DNA of 48,887 nt from an uncultured Verrucomicrobia subdivision 3 bacterium (GTDB taxonomy: Bacteria > Verrucomicrobiota > Verrucomicrobiia > Limisphaerales > UBA11358). How positions within the stretch are numbered: position 1 is the stretch's first letter; each line of letters begins with the position of its first letter. Below are positions 12,556-18,513 of the stretch, in pieces. The stretch is from NCBI GenBank assembly GCA_903884535.1, contig CAISEZ010000058.1, positions 1-48,887 on the forward strand, written 5' to 3'. Under the pieces are notes generated by a model. The model was not told the DNA's origin. It worked only from the letters and a program-made list of their open reading frames with translations, and did not search any database. A program made the position numbers and the translations under genes.

Positions 12556-15500
12556 ATGACCATTCCCGTTCCTGACCGCAATGACAACGCTTCTTGCCCG
12601 GCCTGCCAAAGCGCCGCGCCGGAAGTGATTGTCAAAAAAAATCACCGCTACCACGCTTGTCCCGCCTGCGGCTGCGTGTTCACGGCGAAACTGGTTTCCG
12701 AAATTATTGTCACCGAAAACAACGGCCATTCCGGACGGCACGACCAAAACCAGGATGCAATCCGGCTGCAGCGGTTGCTGGCCAAGCTGGGCCGCTCCGC
12801 CGAACTGGTGATTGATTTCGGCTGCGGCCAGGGCGAGACCACGCGTTTTTTGCAAGCGCAAGGCGTCAACACCATCGGCATTGACCAGGACACGCCGGTG
12901 CAATTGAAAGATCTGGCCGACGCGTCAGTGGACGGCATCATGATGGTGGAAGTCATCGAACATCTTTTTGAGCCGAACGCGATTTTTCAACAGTTCAACC
13001 GCGTGCTCAGAACCGGCGGCGTGGTTTACATGGAAAGCAGTTTTGCGGATAAAAAAAATCTCGCGGACTGGGATTATCTCGATCCGGCCATCGGCCATTG
13101 CACGCTGCACACGCTCAAATCCATGGCCGTGCTCGCGGCGAAAAACGGCTTTGCGGCAGCTTGGCTCAACCCAAATGTGTGCAGTTTTTCCAAGGTGGTC
13201 ACGGTTCAAAACTCTTCCAACCAACCGGTGCAGGATGCGCCGACGAATCCGTTTGAAATCATCGGTGAAGGCATCGCGGATCCGTTCGTGTCCGTGGTGA
13301 TTTCCGCCTACAACTCGGAAAAATACATGCGCGACTGTCTGGCCAATCTCACGCGCCAGACCATTTTCAATCAGTGCGAAGTCATCGTCGTGGACAGCGG
13401 TTCGCCCACCGACGAACGCGCCATCGTCGCGGAGTTTCAGAAAAAGTTTCCCAACATCCGCTACGTTCGCACCGCGCGCGAAAAAGTCGCCGAGGCGTGG
13501 AACCGCGGACTGGCGCTGGCGCGCGGCCGCTATTTCGCCAGCTTGAGCGCCGACGACACGATCCGCGACGACGGCCTCGCCGTGATGGCCGCCGCGCTGG
13601 AACGCCACGCCGACTGCGGTTTGGTTTATGGCGATGTCGGCTGGACCAGCAAACCGAACGACACATTTCCCTGCGCGAATTTGACCCGCACGGTGAAATA
13701 TCCCGATTACACGCCGCTGGAGACGATGTTTTATTGCCTGACCGGCTGCGTGCAATTTTTCCGCACCTCTGCTCTGCGCCAGGTCGGCGGATTTGATCCT
13801 TCACTTTTTTGCGCCGCCGATTACGAAGTCATTTTGAAAATGGTGTCGGCCAAAATGAATGTTGTTCACGTGCCGGAAGTGCTGACCCTGTTTTATCAAA
13901 ACACCGGCGGCATTTCGCAAAGCACCAACCGGTCGGCGGAGGAACATGCGTTTCTCACCAATCGCTACCGCACGAACATGGACATCGCCGAGGTTTTTCA
14001 AGTCGAGCCGGGCCAACCTTCCTCGGCCGCCGATGCGTGGGCCATGCTCGGCGTCAGCGCCACCAAAATCCGCGTGCCGTGGGAAGACCAGCCGTTTGAA
14101 CACGCGGATTTTGCTTTCGCGTGTTTTGAGCAGGCGCTGACTTTGGATCCGGAAAATCTCGCCGGCGGAACAAACCTGATCGCTTTGTGCCACAAACTCG
14201 AACGGCTGAATCCGCAGGAAACCGAACTTGTCACACGCTGGCCAAAGATGCGCCAGTGGATTGATAATTTCCGGCTTGGCGAAGGTAATCACCTGCCGTC
14301 GGTCAAGCACGCAATGCTTGGACCGGTGTATCGTCCGGCGGAATTTTCAAACCGGCCGACGGCCGAACAACTGGCGAGCGAGCCAAAAGCGTTGCAGCCG
14401 TGGATCACACGCATTGACGGCCGCCACGTTTATTTGAGCGAAGATTTTTTCCCACGGCCCGCCGGTCTGCGCTACACGTCACAGGAGCTGAATGACACTG
14501 GCAAAAAATTGGTGGAACTGATGATGGCGCTGCCGCCATTTTACGCGCATCTGGGCGGCGCGGGCGATGCGCTGCTGTTGCTCGCCTCGTTTTACGACCA
14601 GAAACCAAACAGCGCGGTGTTCAGTCATCCCAACGGCGTGCCGGCGGCGAAGGCGTTTTTCGACGCGTTCCCTGGCCTGAGCAAAATTTATTTTCTGCCG
14701 CAGCACGCCGAACCATTTTTTCACATCTCGCTCCGTTACCTGGTTTGCACACTGCGCAATTGCCTCGGCGCGGGCGCCACGCCGAAGGACGATTATGTCG
14801 TGGAATGGAAAGCCGGCCTCGACCTCGAAAAAAAGTATCGCATCAAAAAAACGCCGCGCTGGGCGGCGGCGTTCCGCAAAAATTCCGGCTCGCGCAAAAT
14901 CGCCGTCGCGCCGAAAGGCAGCCTCTCCGGCATGGTCGGTTCCAAGCGCAACATCATTGCGCCCGAAATCTGGCCGCAAGTCATCGAGCATATTTTGGCG
15001 CGCGGTTTTGAACCGGTCATTCTCGGCATGCCGGCCGAGGCGAAAGAATATCCGGCACTGCCCGGCTGCGTGGACGCGCGCAAAGAAACTTTCACCGGCC
15101 AGATGCAGCGCATCGGCGAATGCACCGGCCTGGTCGGCGCAGATTCGTGGGCGAAATCATTTTCCGCGCTCGCCGAAATTCCCACGCTCGTTTTTGAACC
15201 GCTGAAAAGCGCGGACCTCGTCACCTGGAAAGACGCGTCGGACTGGATTTTCATCGAGCCTTGGTCGGCTATCAAAATGCTCAAATCACTCGATCAGTTC
15301 CGGACGGAATTCGATTCGCGCATCGCAAAAATTCCCGGCAGTGCGCCGGTGAAAAAATCCGCGCCGGTCATCGCCTGGCAGGGTTCGTTTCTCGATTACG
15401 GCAGCCTGTCGCACATCAACCGCGAGCTGACAAACCGGCTGGCTTCCACGCTGAATCCCATTTGCGTCGGCTCCAACATTCTGCCGGCTAAAGTCGCGGC

Positions 15501-18500: not shown

Positions 18501-18513
18501 GGCAGAAGTTTAG
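12556..18513 (+). CDS. multidomain methyltransferase-glycosyltransferase-TPR protein (1985 aa)
   Basis: One uninterrupted frame with at least six modules. Residues 14-42 hold a CxxC...CxxC zinc-ribbon-like start. About 80-225 is a class I SAM methyltransferase (VIDFGCGQGETTRFL). About 243-470 is a GT2 glycosyltransferase (FVSVVISAYN, SLSADDT). About 700-900 is a GT9/heptosyltransferase-like region (KIAVAPKGSLSGMV, GADSWAKSFSALA). About 960-1330 is a GT4 domain (LFVGGTIHRKGPDILLDAF, EGFGMPVLEAMACGLP). About 1445-1640 is a second GT2 (LSVCLIVKNEE, DADEE). The rest is TPR-like helices. No signal peptide or membrane segment is seen. A Shine-Dalgarno GAGG lies at 12548-12551. Position after fliW-csrA and among flagellar genes suggests glycosylation of flagellin or another filament protein; substrate and sugar are unknown. 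Confidence 0.9.
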   Translation: MTIPVPDRNDNASCPACQSAAPEVIVKKNHRYHACPACGCVFTAKLVSEIIVTENNGHSGRHDQNQDAIRLQRLLAKLGRSAELVIDFGCGQGETTRFLQAQGVNTIGIDQDTPVQLKDLADASVDGIMMVEVIEHLFEPNAIFQQFNRVLRTGGVVYMESSFADKKNLADWDYLDPAIGHCTLHTLKSMAVLAAKNGFAAAWLNPNVCSFSKVVTVQNSSNQPVQDAPTNPFEIIGEGIADPFVSVVISAYNSEKYMRDCLANLTRQTIFNQCEVIVVDSGSPTDERAIVAEFQKKFPNIRYVRTAREKVAEAWNRGLALARGRYFASLSADDTIRDDGLAVMAAALERHADCGLVYGDVGWTSKPNDTFPCANLTRTVKYPDYTPLETMFYCLTGCVQFFRTSALRQVGGFDPSLFCAADYEVILKMVSAKMNVVHVPEVLTLFYQNTGGISQSTNRSAEEHAFLTNRYRTNMDIAEVFQVEPGQPSSAADAWAMLGVSATKIRVPWEDQPFEHADFAFACFEQALTLDPENLAGGTNLIALCHKLERLNPQETELVTRWPKMRQWIDNFRLGEGNHLPSVKHAMLGPVYRPAEFSNRPTAEQLASEPKALQPWITRIDGRHVYLSEDFFPRPAGLRYTSQELNDTGKKLVELMMALPPFYAHLGGAGDALLLLASFYDQKPNSAVFSHPNGVPAAKAFFDAFPGLSKIYFLPQHAEPFFHISLRYLVCTLRNCLGAGATPKDDYVVEWKAGLDLEKKYRIKKTPRWAAAFRKNSGSRKIAVAPKGSLSGMVGSKRNIIAPEIWPQVIEHILARGFEPVILGMPAEAKEYPALPGCVDARKETFTGQMQRIGECTGLVGADSWAKSFSALAEIPTLVFEPLKSADLVTWKDASDWIFIEPWSAIKMLKSLDQFRTEFDSRIAKIPGSAPVKKSAPVIAWQGSFLDYGSLSHINRELTNRLASTLNPICVGSNILPAKVAADPVMQRCAKKISVTPPARATVTVRHQWPPDWSRPASGALVVIQPWEFGSLPKAWIDEAKNVDEFWVPSPAVRSMYLDSGIAPEKVRVVPNGVDTRKFCPGVRPLKLATRKKFKFLFVGGTIHRKGPDILLDAFLNAFTANDDVCLVIKDFGGDSFYQGQTAADLIRQIQKNPNTPEILHLTTDLAAEQMPALYAACDCLVHPYRGEGFGMPVLEAMACGLPVIVTGGGATDSFVSPAAGWKIPGRFLRLGGRVGDLPLVKSGWLIEPSKPHLVELLKFAFSQPEECRQRGAAGREIAEKSFDWSDIAAVVAHRLREIAENVPQTECGGADLPLSQNVAAPAKGDPQVSPTKIFSLPAVARIGQLDDARELFATKNFEAAWTAVLAALAQRPFHPEAFLLLAEIALAISAGDIAKLCAQRARDLAPGWNLPKQFLSKPLKATTKPEWLALPPALNSQLSTLNSRLSVCLIVKNEEKFIEQCLQSVFGLAAQIVVLDTGSTDRTIEIARQYGAEVHSVAWADDFSAARNAALAHATGDWILMLDADEELPAEQHPKLLADLKNSGVIAYRLPLVNRGQENEGRSFVPRLFRNLPGIFFRGRIHEQIFSSLLPSAKKWCLRTALGAAELLHHGYTQEMLRDRNKVERNLKLLRAAVAEDSADANLVMNLGLELVRSGDLAGGIKKYRTAFELMSAQPAAEVVPELREALLTQFVCQLYKVNGHEEVVQVLTSPLAKNGGLTASLHLSFGLSQFELKNYSAAADQMRHVLAKRKQTALTPINLEIHTAAPLHCLALCHARTGEVLGAEKYFAEAVAAHSRTNEARVDFAKFLMEQQRPTEALQQLHAAITSNAEWVPAWRLGGEIALSCAEFLEFARDWTGEAFKNLPGNPVIAAQHAEALMLNGDATAAAKIWDKIWRSEPDARPLAALILCETISASATHAPKTGEDELATSRAFIAWYQKLITVQAHAVTNQLNGQLDKLSRALPSAAQMLQVALAEAATPAEV
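16856..16883 (+). repeat. four tandem copies of CTCTCAA in coding sequence
   Basis: The 7-mer CTCTCAA is repeated four times without error inside the megaprotein gene, in the linker just before the second GT2 domain (residues about 1434-1443). Seven is not a multiple of three, so gain or loss of one unit would shift the frame. Confidence 0.9.

Follow-up and report, generated by a model that had tools for sequence, protein, structure and literature searches.

A methyltransferase-multi-glycosyltransferase protein encoded among flagellar genes of an uncultured Verrucomicrobia bacterium, and its probable role in flagellin O-glycosylation

What is the function of a protein of 1985 residues, composed of six fused modules and encoded between two blocks of flagellar genes? 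The question is raised by contig CAISEZ010000058.1 of an uncultured Verrucomicrobia subdivision 3 bacterium; the window, meaning the whole stretch of DNA analysed, is 48,887 nucleotides long. The protein (here the giant protein, encoded by the giant gene) is quite probably a soluble cytoplasmic multi-module enzyme which modifies flagellin, prior to its export, with an O-linked glycan that it primes, extends and caps. This reading is drawn from sequence comparison and gene context. The gene and its modules are as follows.

12556..18513, plus strand: giant gene, a single open reading frame (ORF) encoding 1985 residues, in the order methyltransferase, GT2, GT9-fold, GT4, GmaR-like GT2, tetratricopeptide repeat (TPR)
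12583..13260, plus strand: module 1 (residues 10-235), zinc-ribbon-like start and SAM (S-adenosylmethionine) methyltransferase; Pfam Methyltransf_23, E 1.2e-18
13282..13911, plus strand: module 2 (residues 243-452), GT2 glycosyltransferase; Pfam Glycos_transf_2, best stretch 246-387
14341..15360, plus strand: module 3 (residues 596-935), GT-B fold of the GT9/heptosyltransferase type, by fold similarity
15361..16479, plus strand: module 4 (residues 936-1308), GT4 glycosyltransferase; Pfam Glycos_transf_1, E 1.6e-19, and hidden Markov model (HMM)
16876..17625, plus strand: module 5 (residues 1441-1690), GmaR/SunS-like GT2, the constant module; GmaR match, DADE at 1524
17626..18495, plus strand: module 6 (residues 1691-1980), TPR superhelix; predicted model, Foldseek and pairing with module 5

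A preliminary description of the window had proposed that one ORF fuses these parts, and that it lies directly after fliW and csrA. Pfam, HMM and fold comparisons bear out the fusion, and the gene order is flgK-flgL-fliW-csrA-giant. An assembly error as the source of the fusion was ruled out; the same kind of ORF is present in many genomes. Module 1 carries CxxC motifs at 14-17 and 35-38 and DFGCGQG at 87. The best solved relative of module 2 (residues 243-431) is chondroitin synthase. Module 3 has no Pfam match up to E 5 in any of seven sequences and was not placed in GT9 by profile; the GT9 profile link is weak (hhalign E 0.005, probability 7%), so likeness to GT9 is claimed for the fold only. 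Module 4 carries EGFGMPVLE (E-x7-E) at 1188; its start at 936 was set by hand, and the HMM match already starts at 913. No membrane segment was found in the giant protein (maximum 19-residue hydropathy 1.69).

The C-terminal pair of GT2 and TPR is the constant part of the protein. GmaR matches module 5 with E 4e-28 from the single sequence and 1e-46 with a profile of 19 sequences of the GT2+TPR module; with this profile SunS follows (3e-30), then a third GT2 (4e-25), which is ThuS in Foldseek's library. Residues D85, D87 and E88 of the module (DADE at 1524) are invariant in 19/19 aligned rows, and a DxD-type acidic motif is thus kept. The predicted model of residues 1440-1985 (predicted local distance difference test score 91.4) consists of a GT-A domain and then a TPR superhelix; from model residue 176 onward there are only helices, and the TPR part comes directly after the GT2. 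In Foldseek the S-glycosyltransferases ThuS and SunS are closest to the model, followed by the TPR part of O-GlcNAc transferase (OGT). By sequence and by fold the catalytic domain beside the TPR is a GT2 (GT-A), and not a GT-B of the FlmG or OGT type. Before proteins were counted, eight entries were set aside: five truncated proteins, two small paralogs and an extra fragment from a genome already represented. The GT2+TPR pair is last in all 36 proteins with a complete core, and adjoins a GT4 in 29 of them. SunS, going by its name, is presumably a peptide S-glycosyltransferase. Because GmaR transfers N-acetylglucosamine (GlcNAc) to flagellin and SunS modifies a peptide, the natural reading is that the GT2+TPR module would act on a polypeptide acceptor.

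GmaR is a bifunctional anti-repressor (PMC9638930), and the adjoining fliW and csrA are regulators (general knowledge, with an example in excerpts on Clostridioides difficile). The giant protein could by analogy be mainly a regulator, the TPR part of which binds a flagellar repressor while the enzymatic modules are secondary or inactive. This is very unlikely; catalytic-type motifs are in place in the methyltransferase, the GT4 and the C-terminal GT2, and the N-terminal modules are many and diverse.

Genomes that carry the module nearly always carry flagellin. Among 59 related genomes, a strong match to the C-terminal half (all or part of residues 931-1983; picked by eye at about 400 bits and up) was found in 21, and all 21 have a flagellin-family gene, which in G026 is only a weaker, flgL-like one. 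The remaining genomes comprise two which are flagellated without the module and 36 with neither. The window's genus was represented in the first draw by 36 genomes, 12 with both and 24 with neither. The survey of the order covered 293 genomes: 105 carry both module and flagellin, 2 carry the module alone, 40 flagellin alone and 146 neither; a flagellin-family gene is thus present in 105/107 genomes with the C-terminal module versus 40/186 without. The two module-only genomes are 82% (G368) and 59% (G560) complete. G045 and G052 were excluded, as their match covers the GT2 stretch only; with them the count is 105/109. In 288 phylum-wide genomes there were 8 matches at 1e-30, and only the window's own genome matched the full module. 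The flagellated genome G036, a member of the order without the module, encodes a 793-residue protein behind two flagellins (L050:14642-17023); the Pfam matches listed for it are nearly all TPR.

The preliminary description had taken the protein for a maker of a flagellar glycan, to be doubted if homologs lay mostly in polysaccharide clusters of non-flagellated bacteria; the 105/107 count points the other way. The same count bears on whether the giant protein makes a cell-surface polysaccharide (capsule, lipopolysaccharide or S-layer glycan, in the manner of WsaE), its flagellar neighbourhood being due to chance or co-regulation. Its methyltransferase-GT-GT layout does recall WsaE, which caps an S-layer glycan (excerpts of PMC2943079), and such pathways often use GT2, GT4 and GT9 families (general knowledge). 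This alternative is nevertheless unlikely. Besides the co-occurrence with flagellin, the gene sits between flagellar blocks, and polypeptides are the acceptors of its best GT2 relatives. A scan of 20 window ORFs, all lying between 202 and 27569, turned up no ABC-transporter or polymerase family; these ORFs are flagellar, motor or regulatory genes, an integrase, one ORF without a match and a small GT2. The neighbouring genes that define the position are listed below; gene names in the window were assigned partly by position.

9057..10481, plus strand: flgK; Pfam FlgK_D1, E 6.5e-50
10493..11458, plus strand: flgL (hook-filament junction protein), directly after flgK; weak Flagellin_N match, E 8.7e-4, below the cut-off
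11670..12116, plus strand: fliW; Pfam FliW, E 4e-33
12126..12392, plus strand: csrA, 88 residues; Pfam CsrA, E 2e-22
12393..12555, plus strand: structured leader between csrA and the giant gene, with a hairpin at 12483-12511
18551..19624, minus strand: convergent stand-alone GT2-TPR protein, 357 residues, a paralog of module 5; 42% identity over 215 residues to 1445-1656

On the 5' side, on the same strand as the giant gene, lie flgF/flgG-type genes, flgA, flgH, flgI, a rod-binding protein gene (flgJ-like), flgN, flgK, flgL, fliW and csrA. On the 3' side, on the opposite strand, lie the gene for the 357-residue GT2-TPR protein, motB, motA, a sigma factor gene (fliA), an SRP54-type GTPase gene (flhF-like), flhA and a sigma-54 activator gene.

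Synteny was compared in 40 relatives: 20 are all those of the first draw with a strong core match, and 20 were chosen from the order survey for long frames or high score. A flagellar gene is seen in 29 of the 40 loci. That homologs always accompany fliW-csrA is almost, though not wholly, true: fliW is somewhere in the genome in 20/21 module-bearing genomes, and fliW and csrA are upstream on the same strand in 21/40 loci. The flagellin gene itself lies between csrA and the giant gene, in the order fliW-csrA-flagellin-giant, in 10/40 loci (G057, G046, G048, G051, G400, G369, G426, G382, G424 and G419). Flagellin is for this reason the likely substrate, and the csrA-flagellin-giant order is the strongest sign for it; the earlier, broader proposal of a flagellar protein as substrate can be narrowed to flagellin, as a prediction from gene order. 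In the lineage of the window, relocation of the flagellin gene may have left fliW-csrA-giant in place. The filament gene closest to the giant gene in the window is flgL and not flagellin, so other flagellar proteins (FlgL, hook, sheath), or several targets, might be glycosylated instead of or besides flagellin. Set against the ten loci with flagellin between csrA and the giant gene, we regard this as quite improbable.

Several observations weigh against flagellin glycosylation by the giant protein. In the order, 40 of the 145 flagellated genomes are without the module; the module is therefore not needed for a flagellum. Two of the genomes of this kind, G557 (88% complete) and G577 (95% complete), belong to the window's own genus, so that the clean split of the first draw fails for the genus as a whole. 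The Fisher tests of association ignore shared ancestry. No flagellar gene was seen in 11/40 loci, four of which are on contigs shorter than 13 kb. The preliminary description had noted that no flagellin is present; this is incorrect for the genome, which carries two flagellins, though both are on contigs other than that of the giant gene. The first is on C118, behind the gene for an FkbH-domain protein and ahead of fliD; the second is on C163 and is cut by the contig end. Finally, among distant relatives of the GT2 (the best 80 of at least 569 confirmed loci, 77 of them outside the order), 59/77 loci have neither flagellin nor fliW nearby, and the GT2 family alone is therefore no proof of the substrate.

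Flagellin or fliW is near the distant GT2 in the other 18/77 of these loci (flagellin by tblastn in 16/77; the flagellin HMM used here was built from 8/20 loci). Examples are Clostridium ljungdahlii (L113), Brocadia (L124) and Gemmatimonadetes. Beside flagellin, three metagenome-assembled genomes (MAGs) of Gemmatimonadetes (L104, L135, L153) have frames of 1285-1412 residues in which TPR is combined with two or three GT2 stretches. They resemble the giant protein in having multiple GT2 and TPR in one frame, but are smaller, distant (31-38% identity) and without methyltransferase, GT4 or GT9 in their Pfam lists. A Geobacter MAG has a frame of 1387 residues with a methyltransferase, three GT2 stretches and TPR (L143:6986-11146), and a Calditrichales MAG one of 2644 residues with GT2, sulfotransferase, GT4 and TPR (L109:854-8785); no flagellin or fliW was found within the stretch fetched for either. 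Fused forms thus exist outside the order; fusion is not unique to it, and the claim to novelty is lowered accordingly.

Glycosylation of flagellin by the giant protein would most likely proceed in four steps. The C-terminal TPR superhelix (1691-1980) would hold the flagellin monomer. The GmaR/SunS-like GT2 (1441-1690) would attach the first sugar, probably GlcNAc, to serine or threonine. The GT4 (936-1308), the GT9-fold module (596-935) and the GT2 (243-452) would then extend the glycan, and the N-terminal methyltransferase (10-235) would methylate an outer sugar as a cap. We infer the substrate, the donor sugars, the linkage, the order of the steps, the role of the methyl group and the performance of all steps by one chain.

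The N-terminal part is highly variable. The 36 proteins contain 22 different strings of recognised modules, one of which is empty, and range from 665 to 5118 residues; because length or score guided the choice of half of the 40 relatives, this size range is no fair sample. In G047 and G054, which are among the 36, the N-terminal side is cut by a contig end. The ORFs of 5118 and 4400 residues are both uninterrupted. The longest, in G453 (L187:222-15578), contains recognised GT2 and GT4 stretches (four of each), an extended TPR array and a GmaR-like end. Module types found in giant proteins include GT2, GT4, GT9, several types of methyltransferase, FkbM, pyruvyltransferase, HAD, GT11 and a GT29 match. 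GT11 occurs within the giant protein of G369 and also as a separate protein upstream of the giant gene in G021. G021 is the closest core relative of the window protein (76% identity), yet its N-terminal part differs. The GT2-GT9fold-GT4 series is as in the window in G020 and G567, which are without the methyltransferase. In G570 this series is preceded by a methyltransferase with 26% identity over 128 residues, too little to equate it clearly with that of the window, and extra modules stand ahead of methyltransferase-GT2-GT9fold-GT4 in G035. The proteins of G046 and G419 show no recognised methyltransferase module, though each contains an unassigned stretch. In G369 a methyltransferase 66% identical to module 1 (over 208 residues) is placed before GT11 and three GT2 modules; its presence in another module context suggests exchange of modules between lineages. 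For residues 276-920 of the G015 protein (L058:2536-4470), between HAD and GT4, no solved relative was found, and the sole match is a weak one to GT2. Other giant proteins of the HAD type have gaps without a module call at the corresponding place.

Does the order of modules carry meaning? Methyl-, pyruvyl- and HAD modules lie N-terminal of the glycosyltransferases more often than expected by chance: 8/110 pairs are reversed, versus a permuted mean of 55, and 0/20000 permutations were as low. The variants of the test give 7/87 with distinct strings and 8/100 without HAD; before further modules were added there were 2 inversions. HAD was counted as a decoration, and DUF268 in G400 on the glycosyltransferase side. 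Because the decorations are mostly N-terminal and the priming end is fixed, one hypothesis is that the chain, read from C- to N-terminus, parallels the glycan, read from the protein outward. In its full form this would be a colinear assembly line, with the priming GT2 at the C-terminus, extending glycosyltransferases before it and caps at the N-terminus, in which lineages add or swap N-terminal modules as modular polyketide synthases do. The full form is rather doubtful. The test treats proteins as independent; several of the added modules are weak or below the Pfam cut-off (G576, G033), and an extra GT4 was assigned to G559 because its core is 92% identical to that of G576. The test is weakened by these weak modules, by shared ancestry and by the stretches left without a module call. 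The module HMMs leave 25755 of the 89819 residues of the 36 proteins in gaps longer than 150 residues, and a Pfam scan of ten such gaps found further modules, some of which run counter to the trend of caps at the N-terminus.

Comparison with known systems draws on excerpts of the cited papers. GmaR of Listeria monocytogenes (637 residues) transfers GlcNAc to flagellin (PMC9638930). It shares with the giant protein a GT2 followed by TPR helices and an association with flagella, and is the best solved match to the C-terminal module; in contrast, the GT2 of the giant protein is preceded by four additional enzyme modules on about 1440 residues, and the anti-repressor domain is a feature of GmaR. 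In the type B system of C. difficile, GT1 primes flagellin with GlcNAc and GT2 adds two rhamnoses, which its methyltransferase domain is proposed to methylate (PMC5207246). The type B glycosylation genes are downstream of fliC, and in strain 630 flgK-flgL-fliW-csrA precede fliC by a few genes (PMC5207246, PMC10889297). By this description priming, extension and methylation steps would be common to both, and the gene order flgK-flgL-fliW-csrA is shared with the window; what C. difficile encodes in separate genes would be one chain in the giant protein. WsaE of Geobacillus has an N-terminal methyltransferase fused to two glycosyltransferase domains, and methylation caps the S-layer glycan (PMC2943079). 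By Pfam the giant protein likewise has a methyltransferase at the N-terminus joined to at least two glycosyltransferase domains. According to the same excerpts, the glycan extended by WsaE is exported through an ABC transporter before its transfer to protein, whereas the giant protein includes a polypeptide-type GT2-TPR and the scan of 20 ORFs around it revealed no transporter family. In FlmG of Caulobacter the TPR part binds flagellin and the glycosyltransferase part is needed for modification (PMC7591256). Both parts are in one protein, as in the giant; the order in FlmG is TPR and then GT-B, with transfer of pseudaminic acid, whereas the giant protein has GT-A and then TPR. Aeromonas Fgi-1 was considered as a multi-domain precedent and ruled out, being 327 residues long.

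In the known flagellin glycosylation systems compared (including C. difficile, FlmG and Aeromonas), the glycan is made by separate enzymes, as far as these excerpts describe. The giant proteins, of up to 5118 residues, seem to unite the whole series in one chain, of which the attaching end is constant and the outer modules vary. No description of a whole-series single-chain fusion of this kind was found among the papers listed from the open-access literature. The parts have precedents in C. difficile, WsaE, GmaR and FlmG; a fusion of the whole pathway, in which outer modules can be swapped, appears to be a new variant of flagellin O-glycosylation. If this is true, it would be a natural system which programs protein glycans in the cytoplasm without a lipid carrier, and a route for filament glycans to diversify. 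If the colinear reading were also true, the flagellin glycans of uncultured bacteria could be deduced from their gene sequences. The question raised is whether module order predicts glycan order.

The stand-alone GT2-TPR protein has a Pfam GT2 match and a TPR match under the cut-off. Genes like it adjoin the giant gene in G015 and G509, and one is on the flagellin-fliD contig in G020.

Proteins of the FkbH type act in acyl transfer in natural-product pathways. On C118 (L043) the genes are the FkbH-domain protein at 585-2555, flagellin at 2861-3721 and fliD at 3873-5687. Since the FkbH-domain protein is directly upstream of flagellin, the flagellin glycan may, by analogy, carry an acyl group. 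The FkbH protein (376-residue C-terminal fragment, L001) had no significant BLAST similarity to the HAD module of the relatives.

The leader between csrA and the giant gene is single-copy in the genome. Its fold (12393-12575) has -82.5 kcal/mol, with a z of -4.2 versus shuffles. It is a possible control element; control by CsrA was looked for, and the hairpin at 12483-12511 is without the classic GGA loop. Just upstream of the flagellar operon, at 1752-3056 on the minus strand, the window encodes a phage-type integrase.

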